Shown here one piece after another: positions 20,794 to 63,949 of a DNA stretch of 64,000 nt. Position numbers and translations under genes: made by a program. This DNA is from Streptomyces sp. NBC_01264 (GTDB lineage: Bacteria > Actinomycetota > Actinomycetes > Streptomycetales > Streptomycetaceae). Numbering within the stretch: the first letter of the stretch is position 1; each line of letters begins with the position of its first letter. Where the stretch lies: NCBI RefSeq assembly GCF_026340675.1, contig NZ_JAPEOX010000006.1, forward strand, positions 1 to 64,000, written 5' to 3'. The notes under the pieces are model-generated. The model saw nothing but the letters and a program-made list of their open reading frames with translations, was not told the origin of the DNA and did no database searches.

Positions 20794-21435
20794 TTAATTG
20801 CAGGATGCGGTGACGGTGGCCGTGCCGTTCGCGGGGCGGCCGGGAAGCTTGACCCAGCTGGACGTGGCGGCGAGTTCGGTGCATTCGTTGAACCGACCCT
20901 GCTTCACGGCCGCCGACATCAGGCGGCGGGCTTCGGCGAGAGCTGCCTGGGGGTTTCCGGCCGACCCGGTGAAGGTCTGTATCCCTACGCTGAGCTCGCC
21001 GATCCAGCCGTTGGTCACGCTGGCAACGACCCGTGCGGCAGAGGGATCCTGCGTGCTGCCGTAGCGCACTTCAGTACGGGGGACGCTCAGGTCGGGGGCG
21101 AAGACAGCGCTCCTCCAGTTGCGCACAGTGGGGCGTGCGACGTCACCGCCGAATATGAACGAGCCGGCCCTGGACTGCGTGTCCGGGTTGTAGAGGAAGT
21201 AGACGCCGCCAGGTTCCACCTGCGGGTCCTCGGAGACCTTGAGCATGTGGGTGATTCCGCCGAGCGTGTGTACCAGGGTCCATTCCAGGTTGACGAGCTC
21301 TGTTCCCTGGAGGGTGCTGGCGTACGAGGCAGACGCGGAGGAAGGAGCAGGAGCAGCGAAAGCAGCAGAAGCGCCTCCGCCTGCAATCACTGCAGCGGCT
21401 GCCACGGCTGTGATGGCACGATTCCTGAGTTTCAT
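20794..21435 (-). CDS. Secreted protein A of a three-member family
   Basis: A 213-residue protein with a signal peptide (MKLRNRAITAVAAAAVIAGG…, cleavage near AFA/27). The mature domain contains GGVYFLYNPDTQSRAGSF, FGGDVARPTVRNWRSAVF, RTEVRYGSTQDPSAARVVAS and VTNGW. This order of motifs is shared with the proteins at 22875 and 62825. A C-terminal extension ends in a Cys-containing segment (FNECTELAATSSWVKL…TASCN). Function unknown; probably a small extracellular beta-domain. It lies downstream of its paralogue on the same strand, with an IS3 inserted between them. ATG chosen for its GAGAG upstream and the signal peptide. Confidence 0.8.
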   Translation of the reverse strand: MKLRNRAITAVAAAAVIAGGGASAAFAAPAPSSASASYASTLQGTELVNLEWTLVHTLGGITHMLKVSEDPQVEPGGVYFLYNPDTQSRAGSFIFGGDVARPTVRNWRSAVFAPDLSVPRTEVRYGSTQDPSAARVVASVTNGWIGELSVGIQTFTGSAGNPQAALAEARRLMSAAVKQGRFNECTELAATSSWVKLPGRPANGTATVTASCN

Positions 21436-21623
21436 TTCATTCTCTCGGTGTGTGAGACGGGTACTTTTACTTCGCTGATGCCGTCGACCGGGCCGGAACG
21501 GAGCGTTCCTGACGGCCGCACGGCCGCCGGTCAGGAGTTCCTGGTGTGCAGGAGTGAGGTTCCCCCGGGATGCGGAGAGTGTTGACATCGGGTCAGATGG
21601 GACTCATGAGAGGACCAGTGGCC

Positions 21624-21932
21624 ATGGCTGCACCCCGGAAATACTCGCTCGAGTTGCGTGAGCGTGCGGTACGGATGTATCGCACCGCGGAGCCGAAGCC
21701 CCAGATCAAGAAGCTGGCTGTCGACTTCGGCGTGCATCCCGAGGCCCTGCGCGGGTGGATCCGCCAGGCGGAGGCGGATGCCGGCGAACGCGATGACCGG
21801 CTCACCACCGACGAACGCGCCGAGCTCGCGGCCCTGCGCAAGGAGAATGTCCAGCTCAAGCGGGCCAACGACGTACTGCGGACGGCCTCGGCGTTTTTCG
21901 CGGCGCAACTCGACCCGACCCGGCCCAGGTGA
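21624..21932 (+). CDS. IS3 transposase OrfA
   Basis: 102 residues: HTH_8-type DNA-binding domain (KYSLELRERAVRMYRTAEPKPQIKKLAVDFGVHPEALRGWIRQ) followed by a leucine-zipper-like coiled coil (ELAALRKENVQLKRANDVLRTASAFFAAQL). Its TGA overlaps the OrfB start. OrfA binds the inverted repeats and regulates transposition. Confidence 0.9.
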   Translation: MAAPRKYSLELRERAVRMYRTAEPKPQIKKLAVDFGVHPEALRGWIRQAEADAGERDDRLTTDERAELAALRKENVQLKRANDVLRTASAFFAAQLDPTRPR

Positions 21933-22846
21933 CGGCGCTCGTTGACGAGCACCCGTGCCTGGGAGTCGAGTGCGTACTTCGGGAACTGCACATCCCCTCC
22001 TCCACCTACTACCGCTGGCGCCGTGCAGAGGCCGAGCCGTGCGAGCGAAGGCGCCGTGACGTCGAGCTGACCGAGCGGATCAAAGAGATCCACGCGGATT
22101 CCGGCGGCAACTACGGCTCGCCGCGGGTACACGCCGTCCTCAAGCGTGAGGGTGTCCACGTGGGCCGCAAGCGGGTCGAGCGCCTGATGCGCGAGGCCGA
22201 CATCGCGGGGGTCAGCCCACGGCGCAAGGGCTTCACGCGCCGGGACCCGAAGGCCACCCTGGCCCCGGACCTGGTCAACAGGGACTTCACCGCACCGGCT
22301 CCGAACCGGTTGTGGGTCACCGACCTCACCATGATCTCCACCGGTGAGGGGCCTCTGTGGCTCTCGGCGATCCGCGACGCCTTCTCCCGCCGGGTGGTCG
22401 CCTGGGAGACTTCCGCCCGCGCGGACGCCGACCTGGTGCTGACCACCCTGGAGTACGCCCTCGCGTCCCGCGAGGTCGAGCCCGGCCAGCTGATTCATCA
22501 CGCGGACCACGGCTGTCAATACACGTCTATCAAGCTCACAACCCGGCTAATGAGAGCTGGAGTTGAAGCGTCCATGGGCTCGATCGGCGACTCATACGAT
22601 AACGCTCTCGCGGAGAACCTCTGGATGCTCATCAAAACCGAGGGCCTCCGTGGCCGGACCTTCACCACCCGGGCTGAGGCGAACCTCGCGCTCTTCGAGT
22701 ACATCGATGGCTTCTACAACTCCCGTCGCATCCAGGAACGGCTCGGCTTCCTCAGCCCGATCGAGTACGAAGAGAAGCACTACGCCAACCAGGCGACGGC
22801 CGAACCAGCGAACCTGAACACCCGTCAACCCCTCCTGACCAGCTAA
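21929..22846 (+). CDS. IS3 transposase OrfB (rve integrase)
   Basis: 305 residues. After an HTH_21 region (NYGSPRVHAVLKREGVHVGRKRVERLMREADIAG) comes the rve core with DDE residues in LWVTDLTMIST, IHHADHGCQYTS and SYDNALAENLWMLIKTE. The GTG start overlaps the OrfA stop (GTGA). An OrfAB fusion by frameshifting is usual for IS3, but no slippery site was examined in detail. Intact. Confidence 0.92.
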   Translation: MTALVDEHPCLGVECVLRELHIPSSTYYRWRRAEAEPCERRRRDVELTERIKEIHADSGGNYGSPRVHAVLKREGVHVGRKRVERLMREADIAGVSPRRKGFTRRDPKATLAPDLVNRDFTAPAPNRLWVTDLTMISTGEGPLWLSAIRDAFSRRVVAWETSARADADLVLTTLEYALASREVEPGQLIHHADHGCQYTSIKLTTRLMRAGVEASMGSIGDSYDNALAENLWMLIKTEGLRGRTFTTRAEANLALFEYIDGFYNSRRIQERLGFLSPIEYEEKHYANQATAEPANLNTRQPLLTS

Positions 22847-22874
22847 TCAGCAACTCCCGAACAACGGGGGAACC

Positions 22875-23321
22875 TCAGAGCTTGGTGACCGAGCCGACGA
22901 ACGTGGCGTTCCACGGGTCGTCGGAGTCGCCATGCATCACCTGGAAGAGGCGCATCCCGGATGGCACGGCGAAACGGACATCCTGCCAGTCCTGAACGCT
23001 CATCGACCCGTCCTGCATCGGCACGATGCGCCTGGTGAGGATGTCGAACACGAAGAACTCGCCGCCCTCGCACGCCTGCGGCGCGCCGGAGAGCGAATAG
23101 GAGGCAAACGCGTTCTTCTTCGGGGCATCCGTGCGGTAGTCGGCACGGATATTGGTCAGGGCGTAACCATCACCGGTCACCGATACGTTTCTCGACTGAA
23201 CAGCACACTGCTGCGGACCTTCGGAGTCCGCCAGCGCTGCCGTGGCGGTACCCATGCCGATCGCTCCGGCGGCCACAGCCGCAATCGCTGCACCGGTGAT
23301 TAACTTGCGAACTCTGAGCAC
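22875..23321 (-). CDS. Secreted protein C of the three-member family, 3' end clipped by IS3
   Basis: About 148 residues. Signal peptide cleaves after ALA (~31). The domain shows GGEFFVFDILTRRIVPMQDG, VQDWQDVRFAVP, LFQVMHGDSDDPWNATFVGSVT, parallel to proteins A and B. The stop TGA is supplied by the IS3 terminus. Joining the two flanks minus one GAG copy restores …SVTKLLHTRNS and the original stop at 21531, so only six residues were lost. I chose GTG at 23321 because AGAGAGG lies six bases upstream; TTG at 23327 would place the start too close. Confidence 0.78.
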   Translation of the reverse strand: MLRVRKLITGAAIAAVAAGAIGMGTATAALADSEGPQQCAVQSRNVSVTGDGYALTNIRADYRTDAPKKNAFASYSLSGAPQACEGGEFFVFDILTRRIVPMQDGSMSVQDWQDVRFAVPSGMRLFQVMHGDSDDPWNATFVGSVTKL

Positions 23322-23397
23322 GGTCAACCTCTCTTAGAAGTCGGGGGTCTTGCGGGACACGGGGGTGTGTCCTGCCATCCCGAAAACCATATGCCGA

Positions 23398-23424
23398 CAA
23401 CTGGCTTGGTAAATCCCCCAGTTG
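23398..23424 (-). promoter_or_regulatory. Inverted repeat upstream of protein C gene
   Basis: CAACTGG and CCAGTTG, separated by 13 bases, lie ~77 bp upstream of the protein C start. The position suits an operator. No adjacent regulator gene is present, and the surrounding ~330 bases to the next IS hold no other supported feature. Confidence 0.3.
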
Positions 23425-23647
23425 GACTCTCACACTGCGAAACCTGTGCATGGAAACAAGCCACCCCGGCAAGCCCGGGGAGGAACCACGGCGTCTCCAC
23501 ACCACAGCCGCGACACCTTCGGCAGACGCCCCTGAACGCTCCGCGCCGGGTCGCGCAGCCATCGCAGACGACACTGCCGAAGCAGGAGCCAGACACACGA
23601 GATGGCGAAGACAAGCCACAAGAAGGGCCTAGTGCTTGATCTCTAAG

Positions 23648-24502
23648 AAGTCATCTCATTTGGGCTTCGCGGTAGGCTGTCGGCCATGGTGGGGATCGTT
23701 GAACGGCTGGTGCCGGACGAGTTGTGGGAGCTGTTCCAGCGGGTGGTGCCGCAGGCGCCGTCGCGGCCGCAGGGCGGTGGTCGGCGCCGGCACGGCGACC
23801 GGGAGGTGCTTGCCGCGATCGTGTTCGTGGCGACGTCGGGTTGTACCTGGCAGCAGGTGCCTTCGGCATCGTTCGGGCCGTCGGGGGCGACAGCTCACCG
23901 GCGGTTCACCGAGTGGAGCAAAGCGCGGGTGTGGGCCAAGCTCCACCGCCTGGTCCTCGACGAACTGGGCGCCCGCGGCGAGTTGGACTGGTCTCGCTGC
24001 GCGATCGACTCCGTGAACATGCGGGCCCTGAAAAAGGGGACCTGACAGGTCCGAATCCTGTCGACTGGGGCAAGTTCGGGTCGAAGATCCACTTGATCAC
24101 CGAGCGGACCGGTCTGCCCCTGTCCGTCGGCATCTCGGGCGCCAACCTGCACGATAGCCAGGCCCTTGAGCCCCTTGTCCGTGGCATACCGCCCATCCGC
24201 TCACGCCGCGGACGCCGACGGCGCCGACCCGGCAAGCTCCACGCGGACAAGGCCTACGACTACGCCCACCTGCGGCGATGGTTACGTGAACGCGGAATCA
24301 GGCACCGCATTGCCCGCCGAGGCGTTGAATCCTCGCAGCGGCTGGGCCGCCACCGCTGGACCGTCGAGCGCACCATGGCCTGGCTCTCCGGCTGCCGCCG
24401 CCTACACCGCCGCTACGAACGCAAAGCCGAGCATTTCCTTGCCTTCGCCAGCATCGCCTGCACTCTCATCTGCTACCGCCGGCTCACCAAATGAGATGAC
24501 GT
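23648..24502 (+). mobile_element. IS5-family (IS427-type) insertion sequence
   Basis: Perfect 14-bp inverted repeats (GTCATCTCATTTGG at 23650-23663 and its complement at 24487-24500) bracket a two-frame transposase. A truncated relative lies at 49685-50172 in the opposite orientation. Confidence 0.88.
23686..24494 (+). CDS. IS5-family transposase (two frames)
   Basis: Frame 1 has the DUF4096-type N-terminus (MVGIVERLVPDELWELFQRVVP) and the first Asp (CAIDSVNMRA). It ends after the tract AAAAAGGGG. Frame 2 continues with DLTGPNPVDWGKFGSKIHLITER, LHADKAYDYAHLRRW and RRWTVERTMAWLSG-type Glu motif. The A/G run is the expected -1 slippage site. Confidence 0.87.
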
Positions 24503-24505
24503 CTC

Positions 24506-26129
24506 AGCTTGAGTTTTATCCTGTTCGGCGGGGTTTGGTGCCGACCTTGTGGTGGGCGGGTCGCTGGTAGGGCTGGCCTGTGACGAGGACTCTTCCCACG
24601 TTGTGGCGTGCTGCGGGGTGCCGGTTCTTCGATCCGGGTGGCCGTCCGGGGCCGGGGCGGGCGGGTTTGGGTGCACCGGCTGGTGAACCAGTGGCGGTTC
24701 GGATGTTCCTGAACCCGCGTCGGACCCGGGCGGGGGTGAGTCGTTCGGGTGGGGTCGGCTTCTCCCAGGGATGCCGGAGGTCCTGTGCGAGCGGCCGGGC
24801 GAGATTGAGCTGGGTGTGGGCGGCAGCCAGGAGCCATGTCCACCGGTCTGCGGCCTCGGGGCTGCGGAGCTTGGGGCGGGTCCAGCCCAGGGTCTGCTTC
24901 CAGAAGCGGAATGTGTGCTCGACGTCGAACCTTCGCAGGAAGGCCTGCCAGCAGCGGTCGACGTCAGCCGCGGTGGCGCCGGTCCTGGACCACCACAGCC
25001 ACACCGGCTTCGGGTCTCCGCCCGAGGGCAGGTGCCCGACCTTCAGGCGGATGACGGTGCCCTCGATGACGGGCAGCTCGGCAGAATGGTCGATCCAGGC
25101 CGCCCGGCGGGTCAGCCGAGGATGGAGCCGGTCCCACGCTTGCGCGGTCGCTTTCCCGTAGCGGCGGGTGTCGGTGACGGTGACCGCCTGCTCGCCGCCC
25201 CAGGTGTCCGGCCGGCCGAAGACGAACTCGCCTCCGTGCCTGGGCGGGCGTCCGCCGGCGGGGTGGTCCCGGTGGAATTCCTCGCGGGAGGGCGCCGGCC
25301 GGCGCATCACCCGGTCCGATCGCGTCCGGCCCAGGATCTCGAGGGGCAGGTCGGCCAGCAGGTGGGCCAGGCGCGGAGCGTCATAGCCCGCGTCGACCAC
25401 GATCATGATGTCGGGATCGCCCTCCCGCCACTGGCCCGCTTCGACGAGGCGATCGACGACCTCTCTGATCTGGGCGGTGGTAACCGCGGCGACGTCGGCG
25501 CCCGGCTCGATCCGGATCGCGTCCAGCACGGCGGTCCACGAGGTCCGGCCCGTCTCCAGAGCGGCCACGATCTGGTAGGGCCAGCCCGGGATCATCAGAT
25601 GCTTGTTGTCGCCGTACCCGTAGGTATGGCAAAAGCACCGCTCAGGGGCGGTGTCCGCATCCGGCCGCAACCACGGCGAGACATCGACGGCCAGGACCAG
25701 ACGGCCGTCGGCCGCCTTCGGCAGCGGGACAGAGACCAGGGCCCTCCGTAGCCGGCCCACATCCAGTCGCCCATGATTCAGCCCGGCATACAGGGCTCCA
25801 TGGCCACGCCGGTGCTCCGGCGCAAGTGCCAGACCGACCAGCGTCTTCACCGGACCGTCCGCACACAGCACCGCGTCGGTCAACTCGAACAGTGCGTCGC
25901 CACGGGCCGTCATCGACGCGTACAACTCCGTCCGGAAGCGTGACAACACCCCGAACGGCTCCCGCTGGACATCGTGATACAGCAGACTCACCCCTACGGC
26001 CTTCGGCTGATTTCGTGCCTCTGTGACGGAGCACAGGATCAGACGAAGGCCGCCCTGCCGTACGGGAGTTACCACCACGAGTGGTCGAGTTCGAAGAACG
26101 ATTCGACCCTCGAGGATAAAACTCAAGCT
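24506..26129 (-). mobile_element. Insertion sequence with NF041680-type transposase
   Basis: Perfect 17-bp inverted repeats AGCTTGAGTTTTATCCT (24506-24522) and the complement at 26113-26129 delimit 1.62 kb. It abuts the IS5 element on the left and an IS5 fragment on the right, with no unique DNA between. Confidence 0.85.
24516..25991 (-). CDS. Putative transposase (NF041680-like)
   Basis: About 491 residues. Blocks typical of this Streptomyces transposase group: FRTELYASMTARGDALFELTDAVLCADGP, HRRGHGALYAGLNHGRLD, LVLAVDVSPWLRPDA, IMIVVDAGYDAPRLAHLLADLP and FDVEHTFRFWKQTLGWTRPKLRSPEAADRW. The Asp/Asp/Glu spacing fits a DDE nuclease. The GTG at 25991 is preferred because the longer frame runs through the terminal repeat. 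The C-terminus is basic (GRPPGSKNRHP…). Confidence 0.82.
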   Translation of the reverse strand: MSLLYHDVQREPFGVLSRFRTELYASMTARGDALFELTDAVLCADGPVKTLVGLALAPEHRRGHGALYAGLNHGRLDVGRLRRALVSVPLPKAADGRLVLAVDVSPWLRPDADTAPERCFCHTYGYGDNKHLMIPGWPYQIVAALETGRTSWTAVLDAIRIEPGADVAAVTTAQIREVVDRLVEAGQWREGDPDIMIVVDAGYDAPRLAHLLADLPLEILGRTRSDRVMRRPAPSREEFHRDHPAGGRPPRHGGEFVFGRPDTWGGEQAVTVTDTRRYGKATAQAWDRLHPRLTRRAAWIDHSAELPVIEGTVIRLKVGHLPSGGDPKPVWLWWSRTGATAADVDRCWQAFLRRFDVEHTFRFWKQTLGWTRPKLRSPEAADRWTWLLAAAHTQLNLARPLAQDLRHPWEKPTPPERLTPARVRRGFRNIRTATGSPAGAPKPARPGPGRPPGSKNRHPAARHNVGRVLVTGQPYQRPAHHKVGTKPRRTG

Positions 26130-26250
26130 AAGAGCTTGTAAAACGATCATGATTCGGGCTTGTTTGAGGCGTCGCCAGCAGATGAGGCTGAAAGTCAGGG
26201 AGGCGAATGCGGCGTGGAGTTCGGTGCGGCGTTCCCAGCGGCAGGGCGGC
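26130..26250 (-). pseudogene. IS5-family transposase, C-terminal fragment
   Basis: The terminus AGAGCTTGTAAAACGATC is followed on the reverse strand by …RWERRTELHAAFASLTFSLICWRRLKQA. This is the same C-terminus and end as the complete element at 56774-57672. The remainder is missing, and IS630 sequence starts soon after. Confidence 0.8.
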
Positions 26251-26299
26251 TGCAGGTTCCGGGGTGGTGGGGATTGGGGTCATGTCCCCTGGAGTGGTG

Positions 26300-27342
26300 T
26301 ACTGATCTTTATGGCTTTGCTTGACCATCTGTCGGTTCGGGCATACGGGCGGCATGGGGACTTGAAATGCCGTGCGTTCGGGGCTGGTTGAGCGGGAGGC
26401 GCGGCGGATGCGGGCCGCCGGTCTGTTCGAACAGGGTGTGAGGCAGGTGGAGGTCGCCCGGTTGCTGGGGGGTGTCCCGAAAGACGGTCGGCCAGCGGCA
26501 TACGGCGTGGCGGGAGGGCGGTCCTGAGGCGCTGGTGGCGCGGTCGGGCCGAACTCACTTCCATCTGACGGAGTAGCAGGAGCATGAGTTGCTGTGCCTG
26601 CTGCGGCTGGGGGCGTCGGCGCATGGCTGGGAGGGCCAGGGCTGGACGCTGTCGCGGATCGCGTGGGTGATCGAGGAGAGGTTCGGGGTGCGGTTCTCGG
26701 TGCCGGGTGTGTGGTACCTCATGGACCGTCTGGGCTGGTCGTGGCAGGTGCCGAAGACGCAGGCCCTCCAGAGGGACGAGGAGGCGATCGCCGCATGGCG
26801 CACGAGGACGTGGCCGGCGGTATCCCATCCGCGCAGGCCGTGACCGAGGGACGCTGGATCGTCTTCGAGGACGAGTCAGGGGCGGCGCTCATCGGGGTCG
26901 TGCGGCGTACCTGGGGGCAGCGGGGCGTCACCCCGGTGATCAAGTTGAACGGGTCGCGCGGGGACCGGGAGAACATAGTGGCGTGCGTGGCCTGCCGGCC
27001 CGGATCCGAACCGCGGCTGTTCGTGTGGCACAAGAGCGGCGAGGGTACATCAGGAAGCACTTCCCGCTCCTGCTGACCATGCTGCACGCCCGCCTCGGCG
27101 AGCCCGTCACACTCGTATGGGACAACTACTCCAGCCACACCAGCGCCGAGGTACGTGAGTGGGCTGCGGGGCAGGAGCGCTGGCCCAGGATTGTCCAGTT
27201 GCCCCCCTACGCGCCCGAGTTGAATCCCGTGGAACACATGTGGAAGATCGTCAAGGACCTCCTCGCGAACCGCGCATTCCGTTCGATCCGGGAGCTGGCA
27301 GACGCCGCCGACGCCGCGCTCAGCTACGGCAGCTGTAGATAG
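26300..27342 (+). pseudogene. IS630-family element, multiply frameshifted
   Basis: Pieces of one transposase lie in order in three frames. The HTH is REARRMRAAGLFEQGVRQVEVARLLG, then a shift, then HFHLTE followed by TAG. The middle domain is LLCLLRLGASAHGWEGQGWTLSRIAWVIEERFGVRFSVPGVWYLMDRLGWSWQVPK. The DDE region is VFEDESGAALIG…, a shift near 27040, then VTLVWDNYSSHTS and PPYAPELNPVEHMWK. Two other truncated copies of this family lie at 32410 and 35828. Confidence 0.85.
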
Positions 27343-27502
27343 CAGCTGGCGTGGTTTCTGATCATGGTGTGGTGTCGGAGTGGGCGTGCCATCGCCGGTG
27401 GCAGAGGCGGGCTAAGGGCTGTCCCGTAATGATCAAGGGAAAGTGCGGCTCCGCCCTCTGGCTAGTTGACACCTGGGGCTCCGGGAGCGGTTGAATGCAG
27501 TG

Positions 27503-28237
27503 GTGACGGACTGGACGCAGGTGGTGGACGCCCACGGGGAGACTGAGCGAGTGCCGGTGCTTCTCGATTTGGTCGAGCGGGAGGAAGTTCCCGAGGCATG
27601 GGAGGAGCTTTGGGATCGTCTATGCCTACACGGTGAGACTGTCTCGCCGGCGAGCTTTGCCGCTCTGTCCCGGTTGGCTGGCCTGGCCCCCGCAACTGCG
27701 CAGGCTCTTGAACTGGCGGGCGCCATCGCGCGCGGCACTTTGCAGCATCCTGACGGGGAAGTCCTGCTCGCGGGCCGTCCAGAGGTGCTCAGCCGGCTGC
27801 GCGACCTGGCGGACCAGCGACTGCGGAGCCGCCCTGCCGAGTACCACCGGGTCTTCGGTGATCTGCTCGCGCTCGCGGGGCAGTACCACTGGAGTGCCGC
27901 CCTGGAGAACTTCGCCGACGACTTCTACACGGTGTCCTGTCCGCACTGCGTGGCGGAGGTGACCATCGCGATCGGGGACTACGGCTTCTACTCGGCCATC
28001 CGCGACTGGGATCGCGGCGACGTCGAGCGGCGGGAGCTGCTGCCGGCCAAAGTGGAGGGGCTTCCTGACCCCGGCCGCTGGATGCACGCCACTGCGGTCC
28101 GCGACGGGCAACAGCGCATCGCGGAGGGCATCAGGCACCTCTTCGGCCGTGCTGAGTGCCCGACTTGCGCCAGTGTGTTCAGCGTCGCGGACGCCTACAC
28201 GAGCGCGAACCTTCCCCCAGCGCTGGAAACTTCCTGA
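27503..28237 (+). CDS. Hypothetical protein with zinc-ribbon-like CPHC…CPTC
   Basis: About 244 residues, GTG start (…VTDWTQVVDAHGETERVPVLLDLVEREEVPEAWEELWDRLCLHGETVSPASF…). The N-terminal half is helical and resembles a large Streptomyces family with the block 'LW.RLCHQG.V..AS.AALP.L', often annotated hypothetical. The C-terminal part carries CPHC (~150) and CPTC (~228), a likely split zinc ribbon. Full length by appearance. It lies between two ends of an ISL2-like element, so it may be passenger cargo. Function unknown. Confidence 0.65.
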   Translation: MTDWTQVVDAHGETERVPVLLDLVEREEVPEAWEELWDRLCLHGETVSPASFAALSRLAGLAPATAQALELAGAIARGTLQHPDGEVLLAGRPEVLSRLRDLADQRLRSRPAEYHRVFGDLLALAGQYHWSAALENFADDFYTVSCPHCVAEVTIAIGDYGFYSAIRDWDRGDVERRELLPAKVEGLPDPGRWMHATAVRDGQQRIAEGIRHLFGRAECPTCASVFSVADAYTSANLPPALETS

Positions 28238-28278
28238 GCTGGGGAAAGGCGTGATCTTCGCCTGCCATGATCTTGGTA

Positions 28279-29101
28279 TGGCTGGTGTGATCATGGCTTC
28301 GGAGCCTTCGCGGATAGTCCCGTTCACCGGGCTGAGCCCGCAGCTCTTCTGCAAGCTGATCACCGTCCTTCGCCGTGAGGGCGCGGACGAGGTAAGCCGG
28401 GGGCGCCCGTGGTCACTGTCGCTTGAGGATCGGGTCCTGCTGTGGCCGTCTACTGGCGAACCAACCTGACGCTGCGGCAGATCGCGCCCCTGTTCGGCAT
28501 CTCGAAGTCCGCGGCGGACCGGATAGTCACCAGCACGGCACCGTTGCTCGCGCTCAAGCAGCGGCAGCGGTTCCGCAAGGGCACCGTGCTCATCGTGGAC
28601 GGCACTCTCGTGCCCACCCGCGATCACACGATCGCGGAGCAGTCGAAGAACTATCGATACTCCACGAACCACCAGGTGTTCATCGACGCAGACAGCCGCC
28701 AGGTCGTTCTCGTGGGTCGTCCGATGCCTGGCAACCGCAACGACTGCAAGGCCTGGTCCGAGTCCGGCAAAAGCCGCCGTCGGTAGGACTGCAACGATTG
28801 CCGACGGCGGCTATCCGGGAACCGGGCTGATCATTCCCCATCGCCGTCCTGCTGGCGGCGACCTGTGCGACTGGAAGCGTGAGCACAACCGCTCCCACAA
28901 GCAGGTCCGAGCCCGCGTCGAGCACGTCTTCGCGCGCATGAAGACCTGGAAGATCCTGCGCGACTGCCGCCTCAAAGGCGACGGAGTCCACCACGCCATG
29001 CTCGGCATCGCCCGCCTGCACAACCTCCTCCGGGCCGAGCAACAGGCTCAGTCCCATCTCTGCGAAGCAGCCGACCATGCTCCAGAGATCAATTGCGGGA
29101 C
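28279..29101 (+). pseudogene. IS5/ISL2-type transposase (DDE_Tnp_4), frameshifted
   Basis: MAGVIMASEPSRIVPFTGLSPQLFCKLITVLRREG… runs to RVLL. There a base is missing, and the frame changes to VAVYWRTNLTLRQIAPLFGISKSAADRIV … VLIVDGTLVPTRDH … NYRYSTNHQVFIDAD. A second indel near 28770 precedes TIADGGYPGTGLIIPHRR and KQVRARVEHVFARMKTWKILRDCR. All catalytic blocks are recognisable but split by two frameshifts. Confidence 0.82.
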
Positions 29102-33785: not shown

Positions 33786-33800
33786 TGCTGTGGCCGGAAA

Positions 33801-41005: not shown

Positions 41006-41036
41006 TGAGGTTCCCCCGTTGTTCGGGAGTTGCTGA

Positions 41037-41954
41037 TTAGCTGGTCAGGAGGGGTTGACGGGTGTTCAGGTTCGCTGGTTCGGCCGTCGCCTGGTTGGCG
41101 TAGTGCTTCTCTTCGTACTCGATCGGGCTGAGGAAGCCGAGCCGTTCCTGGATGCGACGGGAGTTGTAGAAGCCATCGATGTACTCGAAGAGCGCGAGGT
41201 TCGCCTCAGCCCGGGTGGTGAAGGTCCGGCCACGGAGGCCCTCGGTTTTGATGAGCATCCAGAGGTTCTCCGCGAGAGCGTTATCGTATGAGTCGCCGAT
41301 CGAGCCCATGGACGCTTCAACTCCAGCTCTCATTAGCCGGGTTGTGAGCTTGATAGACGTGTATTGACAGCCGTGGTCCGCGTGATGAATCAGCTGGCCG
41401 GGCTCGACCTCGCGGGACGCGAGGGCGTACTCCAGGGTGGTCAGCACCAGGTCGGCGTCCGCGCGGGCGGAAGTCTCCCAGGCGACCACCCGGCGGGAGA
41501 AGGCGTCGCGGATCGCCGAGAGCCACAGAGGCCCCTCACCGGTGGAGATCATGGTGAGGTCGGTGACCCACAACCGGTTCGGAGCCGGTGCGGTGAAGTC
41601 CCTGTTGACCAGGTCCGGGGCCAGGGTGGCCTTCGGGTCCCGGCGCGTGAAGCCCTTGCGCCGTGGGCTGACCCCCGCGATGTCGGCCTCGCGCATCAGG
41701 CGCTCGACCCGCTTGCGGCCCACGTGGACACCCTCACGCTTGAGGACGGCGTGTACCCGCGGCGAGCCGTAGTTGCCGCCGGAATCCGCGTGGATCTCTT
41801 TGATCCGCTCGGTCAGCTCGACGTCACGGCGCCTTCGCTCGCACGGCTCGGCCTCTGCACGGCGCCAGCGGTAGTAGGTGGAGGAGGGGATGTGCAGTTC
41901 CCGAAGTACGCACTCGACTCCCAGGCACGGGTGCTCGTCAACGAGCGCCGTCAC
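41037..41954 (-). CDS. IS3 transposase OrfB (copy 2)
   Basis: Same translation as the 21929-22846 copy: rve domain with LWVTDLTMIS, IHHADHGCQYTS and DNALAENLWM. GTG start overlapping the OrfA stop. Intact. Confidence 0.92.
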   Translation of the reverse strand: MTALVDEHPCLGVECVLRELHIPSSTYYRWRRAEAEPCERRRRDVELTERIKEIHADSGGNYGSPRVHAVLKREGVHVGRKRVERLMREADIAGVSPRRKGFTRRDPKATLAPDLVNRDFTAPAPNRLWVTDLTMISTGEGPLWLSAIRDAFSRRVVAWETSARADADLVLTTLEYALASREVEPGQLIHHADHGCQYTSIKLTTRLMRAGVEASMGSIGDSYDNALAENLWMLIKTEGLRGRTFTTRAEANLALFEYIDGFYNSRRIQERLGFLSPIEYEEKHYANQATAEPANLNTRQPLLTS

Positions 41955-42259
41955 CTGGGCCGGGTCGGGTCGAGTTGCGCCGCGAAAAACGCCGAGGCCG
42001 TCCGCAGTACGTCGTTGGCCCGCTTGAGCTGGACATTCTCCTTGCGCAGGGCCGCGAGCTCGGCGCGTTCGTCGGTGGTGAGCCGGTCATCGCGTTCGCC
42101 GGCATCCGCCTCCGCCTGGCGGATCCACCCGCGCAGGGCCTCGGGATGCACGCCGAAGTCGACAGCCAGCTTCTTGATCTGGGGCTTCGGCTCCGCGGTG
42201 CGATACATCCGTACCGCACGCTCACGCAACTCGAGCGAGTATTTCCGGGGTGCAGCCAT
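41951..42259 (-). CDS. IS3 transposase OrfA (copy 2)
   Basis: Same translation as the 21624-21932 copy: HTH domain plus coiled coil. Intact. Confidence 0.9.
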   Translation of the reverse strand: MAAPRKYSLELRERAVRMYRTAEPKPQIKKLAVDFGVHPEALRGWIRQAEADAGERDDRLTTDERAELAALRKENVQLKRANDVLRTASAFFAAQLDPTRPR

Positions 42260-42328
42260 GGCCACTGGTCCTCTCATGAGTCCCATCTGACCCGATGTCA
42301 ACACTCTCCGCATCCCGGGGGAACCTCA

Positions 42329-56773: not shown

Positions 56774-57672
56774 GAGCTTGTAACACGATCATGAGCAGGC
56801 CTTCTTGAGGCGTCGCCAGCAGATCAGACTGCAGGCGAGGGAGACGAAGGCGTCGTGGAGCTCGGTGCGGCGTTCCCAGCGGACGGCGAGTCGTTTGAAC
56901 TGGTGGAGCAGAGCGAAGGTCTGCTCGACGACGTAACGGAGCTCGCCCATGCCCTTGATGTTCGGGGCGCCCCTGCGGGAGATGACAGGCAGGATCCGCC
57001 GCTTGCGGAGCTCTTCGCGGCTCGGATCGGAGCCGTAGCCCTTGTCTCCGAGCAGGGCTTCTGGGCGCCTTCGAGGACGACCGGGGCGGCCGGCGACGGG
57101 TGGGACGCTGTCGACCAGGGCGAGGGTCTGGGTGACGTCGTTGACGTTCGACGCGGTCGTGATGACCTTGAGCGGGGTGCCGCGTCCGTCGCAGATCAGG
57201 TGGTGTTTGCTGCCTGTCTTGCGCCGGTCGACCGGCGACGGACCGGTGTCGGCACCCCCTTTTTCGCGCGGACATGGGAGCCGTCCACGCAGGCCCGCGA
57301 CCAGTCGAGTCGGCCGGCCGCGTTCAGCCCGGCGAGCAGGATGCGGTGCAGCCGGTCGAAGACTCCTGCCCGCTGCCACCGCTCCAGGCAGCGCCAGCAG
57401 GTCTGTCCGGAGCCGAACCCCAGCTCCAGCGGCAGGAGTTGCCAGGCTATGTCGTTGCACAGGACGTAGAGAATGCCCTGGAGACAGAGCCGGTCCGCCA
57501 CAGGCCGCGGCCCCGGCGCCCGCTCGGGCCAGGGCGGCAGCAACGGTTCGATCAGCGCCCACAAGTCGTCGTCCACGATCTACGGCCGAGTGCTCACAGC
57601 ATCACAAACGGCCGAATCGTCAGACCGGTCACGCCCGACCAGCGCACCTCAACAAGATCGTGTTACGAGCTC
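56774..57672 (-). mobile_element. IS5-family (IS427-type) insertion sequence
   Basis: 899 bp with inverted repeats GAGCTTGTAACACGATC (right copy GAGCTCGTAACACGATC) and a TTA duplication (56771-56773, 57673-57675). Complete. Confidence 0.9.
56789..57576 (-). CDS. IS5-family transposase (two frames)
   Basis: Frame 1: MDDDLWALIEPLLPPWPERAPGPRPVADRLCLQGILYVL … DWSRACVDGSHVRAKKG. It shifts at AAAAAGGGGG near 57260. Frame 2: GADTGPSPVDRRKTGSKHHLICDGRGTPL, LLGDKGYGSDPSREELRKR and MGELRYVVEQTFALLHQFKRLAVRWERR. All catalytic blocks present. Confidence 0.88.
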
Positions 57673-57675
57673 TTA

Positions 57676-57826
57676 GGTATGTCTTTTTCGGGACAGTGCG
57701 ATAAGTACCGGATTGGCCTTTCTCTATAGACGCCCGTTTCCATCGCCCCGTGAGAGCCGTGAAGAATATTTCGATCATCTCGACGGTGAGGGTGACCTGA
57801 GAGGTCTGCATCTCGTAGTATTCCAC
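57676..57826 (-). CDS. Small AT-rich ORF, 3' end cut by IS5
   Basis: Reverse frame MEYYEMQTSQVTLTVEMIEIFFTALTGRWKRASIEKGQSGTYRTVPKKTY, running into the IS5 terminus. AT-rich codons and a hydrophobic IEIFFTAL segment. Its original C-terminus is uncertain. Not recognised. Confidence 0.35.
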
Positions 57827-57873
57827 ATACTCCTACATCGTCAGGCAGCCGTATCCCGTTTCGGAATATGGAG

Positions 57874-58107
57874 TCAACACATTCTCGAGCAAACTTTCAC
57901 GCTCGCAAAACTGTAGACCCCTGGCCCGATTATGTGTGATGCGGCACTTCGTGCAAGCGACTTGTATAGTTCATTTTCGGAACTTTCGAGCACTTCCAAA
58001 ATGAGGCGCGGGAAACTCATTTCCATTGGTGATTCCGTCCGGCTTCTGTTTTCGATGTCTGTGACGCCAGGCTCATTCTTATATTTTGGTAAACCCTTGT
58101 ATGGCAT
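57874..58107 (-). CDS. Small AT-rich ORF with Ser/Cys-rich tail
   Basis: 77 residues from an ATG preceded by CAGGAAGCC (MPYKGLPKYKNEPGVTDIENRSRTESPMEMSFPRLILEVLESSENELYKSLA…). The tail IIGPGVYSFASVKVCSRMC ends in Ser and Cys residues after an acidic helix. That leader/core layout resembles ribosomal peptide precursors, but no modification enzyme is present in the window. Much lower GC than its surroundings. Could also be a remnant of foreign DNA. Confidence 0.35.
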   Translation of the reverse strand: MPYKGLPKYKNEPGVTDIENRSRTESPMEMSFPRLILEVLESSENELYKSLARSAASHIIGPGVYSFASVKVCSRMC

Positions 58108-58161
58108 GGCTTCCTGTTCGTGCACACATCAGGGAACCACCAACCATCCGAACACCCGAAA

Positions 58162-58188
58162 CGGCCCGCCGAAGAAACCGGCGGACCG
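58162..58188. terminator. Hairpin before IS3
   Basis: CGGCCCGCCG and CGGCGGACCG form a 10-bp stem (one G-U pair) with a 7-base loop. Confidence 0.5.
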
Positions 58189-58247
58189 TCACGAAAGTGA
58201 ACCGCCCCGGGTCGAATGGAGACTCGAATCCGTGAAAGGATCGAGTC

Positions 58248-59122
58248 ATGGCACGCCCCTCCTCCTATCCCGCTGAGCTGCGTAGACGAGCGGTCCGCAT
58301 GGTCGCCGAAGTCCGTAGCGACTACCCGAACGAGTCGGCCGCGATCAAGGCCGTGGCCGAGATGCTCGGCATCGGCTCGACCGAGACGCTGCGCAAGTGG
58401 GTCCGTCAGGACCAGATCGACTCTGGTGCCCGCTCCGGCGTGACCAGCGAGGAATCCGCGGGCGATGAAGAAAGAGATCGCCGAGCTGAAGCGGGCGAAC
58501 GACATCCTGAAGGCCGCGGCGAGTTTCTTCGCGGCCGAACTCGACCGGCCACATCTTCGCTCGTAGCGTTCATCGACGAGCACCGGGACCGCTTCGGCGG
58601 CGTCGAGCCGGTCTGCGGGACGCTCACCGAGCACGACTGCAAGATCGCCCCCTCCACCTATTACGCCCACCGCAAACGGCTCGCCGAACCCTCCGCGCGG
58701 ACCGTGCGCGACGAGGAACTCAAGCCCCTGATCCACCAGGGATTCAAGGACAACTCACCGCCGAGCGGCTCATGCGTGAGCTGGACATCAGCGGCGTCGT
58801 CCGCGGCAAGAAGGTGATCACCACGATCCCCGACGAGAAGGCCGAGCGGGCGCCGGACCGCGTCGAGCGCGACTTCGTCGCCGATGCCCCGAACCGCACC
58901 TGGGTCGCGGACTTCACGCACGTGGCGACCTGGGCCGGCGTCGTCTACGTCGCCTTCGTCGTGGACACCTTCTCCCGCCGCATCGTCGGCTGGTCCGCCG
59001 CCACATCGAAGGAAACCCAGCTCGTCCTGGACGCCTTGGAGATGGCCCTGTGGCAGCGCGACCGCGACCAACACTCCTACGTTCGAGGCGAGTTGATCCA
59101 CCACACGGATGCCGGGTCGCAA
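58248..59122 (+). pseudogene. IS3 transposase, 5' part (frameshift, deletion)
   Basis: OrfA begins ARPSSYPAELRRRAVRMVAEVRSDYPNESAAIKAVAEMLGIGSTETLRKWVRQDQID. After EESA a frameshift displaces MKKEIAELKRANDILKAAASFFAAELDRP into another frame. OrfB continues VAFIDEHRDRFGGVEPVCGTLTEHDCKIAPSTYYAHRKRL. It has an internal deletion of ~30 codons after FKDN, and resumes as LMRELDISGVVRGKKV … RTWVADFTHVATWAG … HHTDAGSQ, where IS30 enters. Confidence 0.85.
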
Positions 59123-60548
59123 GGCGGATTCAACTGGTCGTCGCAACACCTCGTGATCGTGGAGGTGTGGGGTGGTTCGTCGTCAGCAGGCAGCGGACAG
59201 GGCGGTGCGTCCGAAGTTGAGGTCTCCGGGGCATCCGAAGTACCAGCGTCATGTCGAGGCGGCGTTCTGGACGGAGATCGCCAAGGGCCTTCTTGCCGAG
59301 GAGGCCGCGGCCGTCGTCGGCGTGGCGCCGGCGGTCGCGACGCGCTGGTACCGCCAGTGTGGCGGCATGCGACCGTTCGATCCGAAGCCGCCTTCGGGCA
59401 GATACCTGTCGTTTCGCGAGCGGGAAGAAATCGCGCTTCTCAAAGCCCAGGGCAAAGGAGTGCGCGAGATCGCTCGAGATGTCGGTCGTGATCCTGGAAC
59501 GATTTCCCGGGAACTGAGGCGCAACGCGGCCACGAGAGCCGGCAGGCGTGACTATCGGGCGTCCGTTGCCCAGTGGAAAGCCGACATGGCTGCACGCCGC
59601 CCGAAAGCGGCAAAGCTCGTTGCCAACCCGCGGTTGCACGCCTACGTCCAGGAGCGACTGTCCGGTCAGATCAGCACGCCATGCGGCAGGGCTATCGCAG
59701 GTCCTGCAACAGGCAACTGGACGGGACGGAACAAGCCGCATCGCGCGGATCGGGCATGGGTCCAGGCTTGGAGTCCGGAGCAGATCGCGAACCGGATCAA
59801 GCTGGAATTCCCGGATGATGAGTCCATGCGCATCAGCCACGAGGCGATCTACCAGGCCCTCTACATTCAGGGCCGCGGAGCGCTGAAACGCGAGCTCATT
59901 CTGTGTCTTCGAACCGGTCGCGCTCTGCGTGCGCCGCGGGCGCGTTCACGCCGGAAGACCTGGGCGCACGTGACGCCGGAAGCGTTGATCAGCGAGAGGC
60001 CCGCCGAGGTCGAGGACCGTGCTGTTCCCGGCCACTGGGAAGGGGACCTGATCATCGGGCTGGAGCGTTCCGCGATCGGCACCGTAGTCGAGCGGTCGAC
60101 CCGGTTCACGATGCTGGTCGGGACAATCCCCCGAACGAAGAACGGCCCCGCCCTGGCCGGTTACGGAGCGATCTCCATGAAGAACGCACTCGCCAACACG
60201 ATGTCGACGCTGCCCGAGCAGCTGAGGCGCTCTGTGACATGGGACCGCGGCAAGGAGATGTCGGCACACACGCAGTTCCGCATCGAGACCGGTATCCCTG
60301 TGTTCTTCGCCGATCCACACAGCCCATGGCAGCGAGGCACAAACGAGAACACGAACGGGCTCCCGCGTCAGTACTTCCCGAAAGGCACCGACCTTTCACG
60401 CTGGTCCGCCGAGGACATCGAAGCTGTCGCCCACGCACTGAACACCAGACCACGCAAGACACTCGGCTGGAAGACCCCAGCCGAGGCACTCAACGAGCAA
60501 GTACTGTTGCTCCAACAGGCCTGTGTTGCAACGACCGGTTGAGTCCAA
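59123..60548 (+). mobile_element. IS30-family insertion sequence
   Basis: 1,426 bp. Inverted repeats GGATTCAACTGGTCGTCGCA and (right) GGACTCAACCGGTCGTTGCA; GCAA target duplication (59119-59122, 60549-60552). Complete. Confidence 0.9.
59172..60542 (+). CDS. IS30-family transposase, intact
   Basis: 456 residues, GTG start. HTH_38 domain (RYLSFREREEIALLKAQGKGVREIARDVGRDPGTISRELRRN), a second HTH-like region, then the rve core with DDE in GHWEGDLIIGLE, VTWDRGKEMSAH and PWQRGTNENTNGLPRQYFPKG. The last stretch (NTRPRKTLGWKTPAEAL) is canonical. Probably functional. Confidence 0.93.
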   Translation: MVRRQQAADRAVRPKLRSPGHPKYQRHVEAAFWTEIAKGLLAEEAAAVVGVAPAVATRWYRQCGGMRPFDPKPPSGRYLSFREREEIALLKAQGKGVREIARDVGRDPGTISRELRRNAATRAGRRDYRASVAQWKADMAARRPKAAKLVANPRLHAYVQERLSGQISTPCGRAIAGPATGNWTGRNKPHRADRAWVQAWSPEQIANRIKLEFPDDESMRISHEAIYQALYIQGRGALKRELILCLRTGRALRAPRARSRRKTWAHVTPEALISERPAEVEDRAVPGHWEGDLIIGLERSAIGTVVERSTRFTMLVGTIPRTKNGPALAGYGAISMKNALANTMSTLPEQLRRSVTWDRGKEMSAHTQFRIETGIPVFFADPHSPWQRGTNENTNGLPRQYFPKGTDLSRWSAEDIEAVAHALNTRPRKTLGWKTPAEALNEQVLLLQQACVATTG

Positions 60549-60683
60549 GCAATACACGAGCTTCCGGCTCGCCGAGCACCTGGACGCCGCCGACCTCGCG
60601 GCGAGCATCGGCACGGTCGGCGACGCGCTAGACAACGCCCTGATGGAATCGACCGTCGGCCTCTACAAAACCGAGTTGCTTAA
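60549..60683 (+). pseudogene. IS3 transposase, middle part
   Basis: KQYTSFRLAEHLDAADLAASIGTVGDALDNALMESTVGLYKTELL lies between the two nested elements. It carries the rve Glu region (DNALMESTVGLYKTE). Confidence 0.85.
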
Positions 60684-61667
60684 GACCGACCGGCAATAGG
60701 CAGCCTCTGTCGAGTGATCGAGCGCGGTGGATGCAGTGCGGGCACGGGTCCACGTGATCATGGAGTTCTCTACGCTCAGTGATCACGAAGGACGGCCGTG
60801 CCCGCGCTGCCATCTTGCCTGCTCGAACCCCTCTGGGACCAGTTCTCCGCCCTCCTGCCCGCCCGGCGAGAGTTCGCTGCGGACCACCCGCTGGGCTGCC
60901 ACCGCCGCCGGATCGCTGACCGGACGGTCTTCGAGCACGTCGTGCTCGCGCTGGTCCACGGCTCAGGCTACGAGCGCATCTCCACCCCCGGATGCTCCGA
61001 CCGCACCATCAGACGCCGCGTCAAGGAGTGGTCTGAACTGGGGATATCCGAGAAGGTCCACGCACTGGCTCTCGAGGCGCACGACCGGATGATCGGTCTC
61101 GGGCTGGGCGAGATCTCGGTGGACGGCTGCATCACCAAGGCCCCGTCCGGCGGTGAGAAGGCGGGACGCTCCCCGGTCGACCGGGGCAAGCAAGGACTGA
61201 AACGCTCGGTCGCCTCCGACGCCTGCGGTGTCCCGATCGGAATCGTCTCCGCCGGCGCGAACCGGCACGACTCACCCCTGCTGGGCCCCACCCTGGAGGC
61301 GGCGAAGGCACAGGTCGGCGCAATGCCGACGGCGGTCAACGTCAACCTCGACCGCGGCTACGACAGCACCACGTCCCGTGCGCTTATAGCCGAGTTGGGA
61401 TTCACGGCCGAGATCGCGCGTAAGGGCGTGCCAGCCCCGATCCAAGCCGGCAAGCGCTGGGTGGTCGAGCGCACGCACTCGTGGATGAACGACTACGGCA
61501 AGCTGCGGCGCTGCACAGAGAAGAGCGGCAGCATCGTGGACTTCTACCTGTACCTGGCCGCCGCCCTCGTCACGCTCCGCATGCTCATCCGTCGAGCAAC
61601 GAGCCGCTACCGCTGGGCCGACCGCCCCACCACCCGACGCCTCAAGTGATCCATTTGCCGGTCGGTC
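60684..61667 (+). mobile_element. IS1031-like (IS5 family) insertion sequence, complete
   Basis: 984 bp with GACCGACCGGCAA inverted repeats and a TAA duplication (60681-60683, 61668-61670), fitting the TNA target of the IS1031 group. The truncated copy at 14647-15349 is nearly identical. Confidence 0.9.
60798..61649 (+). CDS. IS1031-type transposase, intact
   Basis: 283 residues: MPALPSCLLEPLWDQFSALLPARREF … GCSDRTIRRRVKEWSELG … EISVDGCITKAPSGGEKAGRSPVDRGKQGLKRSVASDACGVPIG … VNVNLDRGYDSTTSRALIAELG … WVVERTHSWMNDYGKLRRCTEKS. The DG, DRGYDS and ERTHSW blocks give the DDE triad. Single frame. Confidence 0.92.
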   Translation: MPALPSCLLEPLWDQFSALLPARREFAADHPLGCHRRRIADRTVFEHVVLALVHGSGYERISTPGCSDRTIRRRVKEWSELGISEKVHALALEAHDRMIGLGLGEISVDGCITKAPSGGEKAGRSPVDRGKQGLKRSVASDACGVPIGIVSAGANRHDSPLLGPTLEAAKAQVGAMPTAVNVNLDRGYDSTTSRALIAELGFTAEIARKGVPAPIQAGKRWVVERTHSWMNDYGKLRRCTEKSGSIVDFYLYLAAALVTLRMLIRRATSRYRWADRPTTRRLK

Positions 61668-61842
61668 TAAGCCGCAGCGGCCCTGGAAGACCCTCGCTCA
61701 GGTCGAGCTCGCTACCGCCGAGTGGGTCGACTGGTACTGCCACCGACGCCTGCACGGTGAGATAGGCCACGCCCCGCCCGTCGAGTACGAGAACAACTAC
61801 TACCTCACGACCACGAAACCCCAGGTCACAACCACTATCTGA
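61668..61842 (+). pseudogene. IS3 transposase, C-terminal part
   Basis: KPQRPWKTLAQVELATAEWVDWYCHRRLHGEIGHAPPVEYENNYYLTTTKPQ…, stop TGA. Normal IS3 C-terminus after the TAA junction. Confidence 0.85.
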
Positions 61843-61869
61843 GATCTCTACCGAACCCGGAACGGTTCA

Positions 61870-62568
61870 CGCTGACCTGCACCGCGTCGGGCAGGACCCG
61901 GCGGATGGCTTCGGCGTAGGTAGTGGAGCCGTCGCGGCATACGACCTCGACGCCCGGATGCTCGCGCAGCCACGCTTCCAGCGTGCCGGCTGTCCGGTCG
62001 GGCAGCACGTCAATCCGCTCATGCGTTTCCGCGTCGATCACCATGGTCGCGTATCGGTGCCGCCGGCGCAGGGCGAAGTCGTCGACACCGATCACGCGGG
62101 GCACCCGTTCGGTGGGCAGCGCAACACGTAGCAGGGTTCGCAAGGCCGTGTGACGCGACAGGCCCATCGCGAGTATCGCCAGCAGACGCGATCCCGCCCG
62201 GCCCGCCAACTCCTTGACCACGGCCTTGACCTGCCTGTTCAGGCGGGCTGTGCGCCGCTGATATCGCTCCAACACCCCCGGCAGCTGCTCGCGGAAGGTG
62301 TGACGGCAGCCGCGGGTCGGACACACCAGACGCCGAACCCGGACACGGGGACCACAACCCGCCGGCCGTCGATCGGGAGGTCGGCTACCGTCCGCCAGTG
62401 ATAGCCGTGGACCCGCCCCGACAACTCTCCGCACATCGGGCAGACCGCGGTCGTTCCCGGAGTCCGTACCCTCACTACAACGCGTTCACCCTCGTCGACC
62501 ACATTCTCGATGACCAGCGGGGATATCCCCGAAAACACCGTCGCCACCAGCTCGTTGAGACTCTCCAC
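61870..62568 (-). pseudogene. ISL3-family transposase, frameshifted and 3'-truncated
   Basis: Reverse strand: MESLNELVATVFSGISPLVIENV, zinc-binding CPMCGELSGRVHGYHWRTVADLPIDGRRVVVPV, a shift near 62325, then RRLVCPTRGCRHTFREQLPGVLERYQRRT … VPRVIGVDDFALRRRHRYATMVIDAETHERIDVLPDR … VCRDGSTTYAEAIRRVLPDAVQVS. The IS3 terminus at 61869 removes the last third. The first two catalytic Asp (GVDDFA, CRDGS) remain. Confidence 0.83.
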
Positions 62569-62711
62569 ACCGACATCAACGACCTACGCCACTGTGAGAC
62601 AGGGTCGTTGACCGTACAGACCCCCCACACTGATCGGCTACACCACGAAGAAGGACACCATCAGCAGCTCGGCAACGTGCCGAATGGGGGAGTCTCCGTG
62701 CTCGACCTTCG

Positions 62712-62750
62712 GGGGAGGTGGTCCCGCCCGTGAAGCGGGACGATCTCCCC
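62712..62750. repeat. Long hairpin upstream of secreted protein B
   Basis: GGGGAG + GTCCCGC pair with GCGGGAC + CTCCCC around a 7-base loop, with a 3x3 internal mismatch. It could insulate the gene from IS transcription or form part of its leader. The remaining 62569-62824 holds the ISL3 outer end and the promoter. Confidence 0.5.
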
Positions 62751-62824
62751 TCGTGCCGAAGCCTCCTGAATGGACATCAGGAATCAGGTGACGGCAAAAG
62801 GCTTCTCGGAAAGTTGAGGCATTC

Positions 62825-63949
62825 ATGAAAACGGCAGCATTACTTGCCGGTGCATCCACTGTGGGTGCACTGCTGTTGTGGGCTCCCGTGGCGGACGCGG
62901 AGACGGCTCCGCCGCAGGCTAACACCTCCACTGCCAGGGCTGCTTTCGGCACCGGCGGTCTGGGGGTGGTGCAGGGGAAGAAGTACGTTCTGGAACACCT
63001 CGTCGAGACCACTGTTCCCGCCAAGGCCGGCAGCATCAGGGTTCTTGCATTGGACGGCCCCCCGAACGTCTCCAGCCGGCCTGGGGAGGTCTTCTTCCTT
63101 TACGATCCGTCCGAACGGAGCGTCACCGGGTCGTTCTGGCTCAGCGGTGACACGGCCGCGACGGAGGTCGACGACTGGCGGCAGGTCAAGTTCTCCTACC
63201 CCTCACGGTCTCAGCAGCGCATCGAGGTGCGCTACGGCAGCTTCGCCACCCCTCAGACAGCCGACATCGTGGCATCGGTCACGCGCTCACACGACCAGAA
63301 GTCCGCCGAGCCCGTCCTGATAGACGACGCCTTCACCGAGTCGGAACAAGGCTGGAAACAGTTCATCGCCGACGTGCATGCCGACAGTCCCCTGGAGGAC
63401 TTCGAACTCCACTACGGCCTCGACCAGATCCCCGCGCCACTGGACGCCATGGGCCGCGCGCTTCACATGACCGGACACAACCGCAGCGACGACCTCGCCA
63501 TGTTCGCGACCAAGGAACTCGGGCCGCGGCACGGCATCAAGCCGAACACGAACTACCGCATCGACTACGACTTCGACATCGCCACCAATGCCTATAGCGG
63601 TGTAGGTATCGGTGGTGACCCCGGCGGCTCGGTGTACGTCAAGGCGGGCGCCGTCTCCATCAAGCCCGCAACCGTGCGTGAGGCGGGCCTGCTACGCGCG
63701 AACTTCGACCACGGCAACCAGTCGGAGGACGGCAAGGACGCAGTCGTGCTCGGCAACCTGATCAAGCCGTCGGGCCTTGAGGACGACACCTACGAACTCA
63801 AGCACTTCAACAATACCGACAAGCCGCTCAGTGCCACCTCCGACGCCCAGGGACGACTCTGGCTGGTCGTGGGCACCGACTCCGGCTACGAAGGCATCAC
63901 TCACGTCTACTTCCCCCGCATCGGCGCCACCCTCACGCCGGTCCCGTAA
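62825..63949 (+). CDS. Secreted protein B of the three-member family, two-domain
   Basis: 374 residues. Signal peptide cleaves after ADA (25). Domain 1 (~52-154): PGEVFFLYDPSERSVTGSF, LSGDTAATEVDDWRQVKF, IEVRYGSFATPQTADIVAS, homologous in order to proteins A and C. Domain 2 (~160-374): FTESEQGWKQFIADVHADSPLED, LHMTGHNRSDDLAMFATKEL, NYRIDYDFDIATNAYSGVGIGGDPGGSVYVKAGA, GNQSEDGKDAVVLGNL and DAQGRLWLVVGTDSGYEGITHVYF. Domain 2 resembles an uncharacterised bacterial jelly-roll-like secreted family. GAGG ribosome site before the ATG; terminator after the stop. Function unknown. Confidence 0.83.
   Translation: MKTAALLAGASTVGALLLWAPVADAETAPPQANTSTARAAFGTGGLGVVQGKKYVLEHLVETTVPAKAGSIRVLALDGPPNVSSRPGEVFFLYDPSERSVTGSFWLSGDTAATEVDDWRQVKFSYPSRSQQRIEVRYGSFATPQTADIVASVTRSHDQKSAEPVLIDDAFTESEQGWKQFIADVHADSPLEDFELHYGLDQIPAPLDAMGRALHMTGHNRSDDLAMFATKELGPRHGIKPNTNYRIDYDFDIATNAYSGVGIGGDPGGSVYVKAGAVSIKPATVREAGLLRANFDHGNQSEDGKDAVVLGNLIKPSGLEDDTYELKHFNNTDKPLSATSDAQGRLWLVVGTDSGYEGITHVYFPRIGATLTPVP

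Follow-up and report, generated by a model that had tools for sequence, protein, structure and literature searches.

Many small proteins secreted by Streptomyces have no known function, and for microbial transglutaminase, an industrial protein-gluing enzyme, both the role for the producer and the partners are only partly known. Characterised substrates of the Streptomyces mobaraensis transglutaminase include SSTI, SPI and DAIP, which are secreted and act on proteases, with masses of 14 kDa for the SSTI subunits and 12 kDa for SPI (PMC4757070). BsuPI, or IPI (PF12690), is described as a small Ig-like beta-sandwich whose homologues include proteins with signal peptides (PMC3901451). Here we describe a compact, unnamed family of putatively secreted proteins, three of which (A, B and C) are encoded in 64 kb of Streptomyces sp. 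NBC_01264 (hereafter the window, to which all positions refer), lying within contig C6 (140,948 bp) of a genome of 10.67 Mb; where close relatives of the window's proteins carry a name, they are from Streptomyces. One branch of this family is adjacent to an enzyme gene, which gives a first testable hint of the family's function.

Relationship of A, B and C

A, B and C almost certainly belong to one undescribed family of small, leader-bearing proteins that share a core of ~105 residues and are found nearly exclusively in Streptomyces. In BLASTP comparisons, A and B are 42% identical over 105 aa (E = 1e-16), B matches C at E = 2e-6 and A matches C at E = 4e-5, with 28% identity across the aligned part. 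Two profile hidden Markov models (HMMs) were run against the 946 six-frame open reading frames (ORFs) of the window, each at least 40 aa long. The first, built from 12 relatives outside the window (one of them a paralogue elsewhere in the window's own genome), placed A (1e-46), B (3.6e-22) and C (4.2e-5) at the top, with the fourth ORF at 0.022. The second, built from 12 members of a distant branch, gave 1e-11 for B, 2.5e-11 for A and 0.0013 for C, with the fourth ORF at 3.1. Profile-profile comparison with hhalign yielded probabilities of 92-99% among four family groups; C on its own scored 92% with the A-type group, 87% with branch III and 71% with B. When RskA_C served as the control, four comparisons gave 0.2-0.3% (26 of the 28 places in this test set were taken, with 24 usable translations), values that rule out RskA_C, the best Pfam match of the domain, as its identity.

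An earlier note, made from the letters of this DNA, had proposed a domain common to the three proteins and belonging to no named family. Both points are borne out by these comparisons, including the profile comparison that it had called for, in which the scores lie far above the control, and by the library scans, in which no Pfam or NCBIfam model reached its cut-off for the family domain. No PDB chain matched the family by sequence below E 0.15.

Protein A (21435-20794, minus strand, 213 aa) consists of a leader, a family domain of subfamily I (21010..21303, minus; residues 45-142, a predicted beta-sandwich) and a small C-terminal domain (20797..20988, minus; residues 150-213, predicted beta-alpha-beta-beta) that had been missed. 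Protein C (23321-22875, minus; GTG start, 148 aa, or 154 before the insertion described below) has a leader and a family domain of subfamily II with two cysteines. Protein B (62825-63949, plus, 374 aa) has a leader, a family domain (62969..63289, plus; residues about 49-155) and the second domain already attributed to it, which corresponds to a jelly roll resembling carbohydrate-binding modules (CBMs) and belonging to a large family without a name (63299..63946, plus; residues 159-374). The coordinates of the three proteins had been given correctly, and the strands are added here. All three have a basic-hydrophobic leader followed by A-x-A-type sites, which agrees with the signal peptides proposed for them, as judged by a hydropathy heuristic in place of a signal-peptide predictor.

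The core occurs alone, with a small C-terminal domain (as in A) or with a jelly roll (as in B), and most members seen are a leader plus a single core domain. Its conserved positions comprise an invariant L, G and P and a near-invariant A, G, F, V, Y and A, which suggest no enzyme activity.

Predicted fold and proposed mode of action

The family domain of A modelled well as a small beta-sandwich with weak FN3/Ig-type structural matches, and we infer from this model that the core may be an Ig-like beta-sandwich. Domain 1 of B had a predicted local distance difference test (pLDDT) score below 50 in the single B model, perhaps from an alignment that mixes two domain families. No conflicting fold, the outcome that the earlier note had set as its refutation, emerged from these models. 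A Foldseek search with the A model returned nothing at E ≤ 0.001; BsuPI, chagasin and SSI are not among the structure matches listed, which does not exclude them.

For the function of the family we favor a binding or inhibitor-like mechanism, with a probability of roughly 0.3. The core would bind another extracellular protein and have no enzyme activity of its own, a mode of action that can be likened to that of the small protease inhibitors which Streptomyces secretes. This role fits best, if weakly, because the proteins are small, secreted, built on one beta-domain, present in many copies, fast-changing and linked to an enzyme that has protease-acting secreted proteins among its characterised substrates. 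For B, the jelly roll would serve to attach the core to a glycan or some other surface, and in species with transglutaminase one branch would be the co-encoded partner or substrate of the enzyme.

Size and distribution of the family

The family was earlier taken to have three members; the window's genome contains at least seven (A, B, C, C1:69841, C1:137974, C7:6241 and C9:24759), and there are more in other genomes. C1:69841 and C7:6241 (L043 and L046) are almost the same in sequence, each within a copy of a 1,666-bp block that occurs on two contigs with 97.6% identity; in L006, a further small ORF with a leader for secretion lies upstream. Full-length orthologues of B occur in two other Streptomyces (P0022, 95% identity; P0023, 88%).

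Across the genus, 18 of 392 genomes matched the family alignment and 15 were kept as family genomes. The other three (G141, G220 and G235; E 1.5e-5 to 9.7e-5, spanning no more than profile positions 3-93) were dropped as members, the match being, on reading, to the beginning of a long protein of another kind. In a class-wide draw, eight of 296 genomes matched, namely the window's own, G361, G366, G605 and four with weak partial matches (G419, G430, G595 and G623; E 2e-4 to 8e-4) that were not counted as members. G605 lies outside the taxonomic family and has a full-length copy (E 4e-34), the one clear member of this kind. A draw across the taxonomic family gave matches in ten of 249 genomes and two of 17 genera; a weak match in G163 was not counted, and in G810, from another genus, the matched region contains a stop codon.

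A protein search with A identified 12 proteins at E ≤ 0.001, one being a form of A, and an alignment-based search identified 16 at E ≤ 0.01 among the best 7,997 candidates scored, two of them from this contig. Scanning genome contigs with the A-type alignment gave one locus, in Streptomyces sp. NRRL F-2664 (records of the window's own genome were possibly left out), so subfamily I is rare among the genome contigs scanned. A search of 50,697 phage records gave no match to A (E ≤ 0.01), and viral contigs gave none to the A-type alignment. Among plasmids, an A-type gene lies next to an IS6 transposase on a linear plasmid of Streptomyces sp. JCM17656 (L042), B was matched only in part and C had no match. 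With the phage and viral searches empty and plasmid matches scant, a phage or plasmid origin was rejected. The A-type gene of the JCM17656 plasmid has YcaO-like/TOMM genes about 3 kb away.

This patchy distribution, the several paralogues on contigs rich in insertion sequences (ISs) and the variable C-terminal parts would also suit secreted weapons or immunity-type proteins acting between microbes, with the core as the delivery or recognition part. We consider this very unlikely: no convincing toxin, immunity or defence match was obtained (a bacteriocin-type NCBIfam model at 0.024 and a phage tail PHROG at 0.035, one member each), and the tails are short or are binding-type domains.

Branches and domain combinations

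A tree of 41 core domains splits into A-type domains (subfamily I), C-type domains (subfamily II), B with its orthologue, and branch III. P0022, the fragments L032 and L034 and three duplicates of A, B and C were left out of the tree. Subfamily II, which has the two cysteines, comprises C, the copy on C9 and C1:137974, and branch III is marked by the motif NPF..M.L.GL, with MCPAG.C in many members. Subfamily I is moderately supported as a whole (82/93), and the deep branching order is uncertain because of long branches. By sequence, A and C are not the products of a recent duplication, because they fall into different subfamilies and share 28% identity.

In the C1:137974 protein, a C-type core is followed by an A-type tail domain, so this tail, going by the sequences, has either moved between subfamilies or been lost often. 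It was found in one of 392 genus genomes, the window's own, at two places, and also in P0007 and P0008. P0012, the protein next to A in the tree, does not have it, nor is there any significant remnant downstream of the P0012 gene. Other C-terminal parts in the family include a short NGWIS end, a CPxHLxC end and the jelly roll.

The second domain of B has at least 379 homologues at E ≤ 0.001 from several phyla and no Pfam or NCBIfam match. Its confident jelly-roll model resembles CBM27/CBM22 and cleaved-adhesin domains (8-14% identity in those matches), with adhesin, Eph, MAM and cyclase domains scoring nearly as high; on the model, the domain has a CBM-family jelly-roll fold. It belongs to a group of several hundred proteins across several phyla for which no library model was found and which can be modelled with high confidence. 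Among the homologues listed, some carry YbaY-type (PF09619) or dockerin (PF00404) domains and some are named PEP-CTERM.

B, in which the core is joined to a CBM-like jelly roll, raises the possibility that the family is a surface-binding module, in which the core and its varied C-terminal parts attach secreted proteins to mycelium, spores or the substrate and regulate no enzyme. The diversity of C-terminal parts (NGWIS, CPxHLxC, small domain and jelly roll) and the sharing of the A tail domain by two subfamilies point the same way. We hold this to be tentatively plausible; most members seen, however, consist of the core alone and have no anchor.

A branch linked to transglutaminase

A comparison of neighbourhoods showed that some branch III genes are followed directly by a recurring ORF longer than 400 residues, which is a microbial transglutaminase (PF09017, E 6e-264 in the one tested). 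PF09017 matched 25 of the 392 genus genomes, 24 of them over the cut-off. With a branch III HMM, an upstream match (E ≤ 0.001) was found at 13 of the 25 transglutaminase loci. Six are intact linked copies (G241, G060, G058, G258, G090 and G219); the other seven were classed, on reading, as one copy that carries an internal deletion (G018), four that lack the middle, one with a frameshift and one weak remnant. The remaining 12 loci gave no upstream branch III match at this threshold; among them, L081 was covered by a shorter stretch and L087 lies below the PF09017 cut-off. A seventh intact linked locus came from the draw across the taxonomic family (G779). Along L063-L087, the upstream gene appears at successive stages of decay: intact, with an internal deletion, with the middle lost, frameshifted and undetected. 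No account of a gene upstream of transglutaminase was found in the literature covered (including the available text of PMC11157053, PMC12835111 and PMC4757070), which does not prove its absence in print.

The seven intact linked genes are on the same strand as the transglutaminase and directly upstream of it, about 160-300 bp apart, an arrangement that would also be expected of a secretion or folding helper of the secreted enzyme encoded next to it, comparable to the MelC1 tyrosinase caddie; for one branch the client would be transglutaminase. We regard such a helper as quite improbable, given that 18 of 24 genomes have the enzyme but no intact linked copy and that abstracts on pro-transglutaminase made in other hosts stress only its own pro-peptide. 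Matches to MelC1 are weak (Pfam, one of 25 members at E 0.019; PDB, E 0.88), and the PDB match covers only profile positions 4-40, the leader region; identity with the MelC1 caddie was accordingly rejected.

Returning to the binding or inhibitor-like role, several observations weigh against it. All seven linked copies fall into a single clade (support 100/99), and the linkage is probably a single inherited event. The co-occurrence of the family with transglutaminase, present in 9 of the 15 family genomes versus 15 of the 377 others (Fisher 1e-8), is for this reason not independent evidence. Nor does the clade allow much to be read into a local pattern in which Q-K or Q-R precedes the FF strand in six of the seven linked copies (Q-H-K in the seventh) and Q-R stands at that site in one of ten unlinked branch III copies (L112). 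Among the 24 transglutaminase genomes, the linked copy is intact in six and decayed or undetected in 18, of which G018, G051 and G303 have an intact family copy elsewhere. The ratio of non-synonymous to synonymous substitution rates (dN/dS) is about 0.51 for the linked gene versus 0.30 for transglutaminase (21 pairs, seven genomes). The window's own genome gave no PF09017 match in the genus search, so any partner that A, B and C may have must be a different one. Finally, beta-lactamase is another reported transglutaminase substrate, and surface attachment fits B nearly as well.

The raised dN/dS of the linked branch, the repeated decay of the linked gene and the two near-identical copies in duplicated segments on two contigs could also mean that these are lineage-specific genes under weak constraint, spread by mobile DNA and with no important role. 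This seems doubtful to us in view of the full-length B orthologues in two other strains, at 95 and 88% identity, and the seven open-frame copies in one genome. The earlier note had read the retention of three copies as a sign of selection; the linked branch, the only one in which this could be tested, does not show it (dN/dS 0.51 versus 0.30, with copies decayed or undetected in 18 of 24).

Within the binding reading, a more specific scenario would make the transglutaminase-linked branch a dedicated, co-encoded partner or substrate, drawn from a new class of Streptomyces extracellular protein-binding module; this module would afterwards have lost its tie to the enzyme, been combined with other secreted domains and multiplied in strains like the present one. 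We consider this scenario improbable.

Insertion element in gene C and other features of the window

An insertion element of 1323 bp with two plus-strand ORFs (21555..22877, plus) has matching inverted ends and a 3-bp target duplication; we take it to be IS3-type from its ORF layout and short target duplication. A second copy at 41006-42328, in the opposite orientation, is identical over all 1323 bp and has a 3-bp edge repeat. The first copy sits in the last codons of C, its end provides the stop codon and C is 6 residues shorter as a result. A begins 95 bp past the former stop codon of C. A and C were thus neighbours before the insertion, as had been suggested; the element, however, lies within the 3' end of C and not between the two genes.

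Elsewhere in the window, two neighbouring look-alike proteins with leaders and no Pfam match are encoded on the minus strand at 15427-15927 and 16088-16609. Also on the minus strand are a protein with a lipoprotein-type leader followed by a GmrSD_C domain (11249-11959; PF07510, E 1.9e-11) and an EF-hand protein (3359-3910; PF00036, PF13499).

Comparison with known systems

RskA_C (PF10099), the C-terminal part of anti-sigma-K factors, is matched weakly in Pfam by A (E 0.0016) and by four of 25 members (best 0.0011); the score of A is 19.2 bits against a curated cut-off of 29.4, and the hhalign probability is 0.2-0.3%. CBM27/CBM22 and cleaved-adhesin domains compare with domain 2 of B only, at 8-14% identity and with no Pfam model. 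The putative likeness to BsuPI comes without a Pfam match: PF12690 matched none of A, B and C (E ≤ 1) and none of 25 members (E ≤ 0.1). SSTI, SPI and DAIP, which have structures in the PDB, are not among the PDB matches of the family. The family differs from these proteins in having no PDB match below E 0.15 and no known inhibitory activity. Like the family, SSTI/SSI, SPI and DAIP are secreted by Streptomyces, SSTI and SPI are also small, and one branch of the family is linked to transglutaminase.

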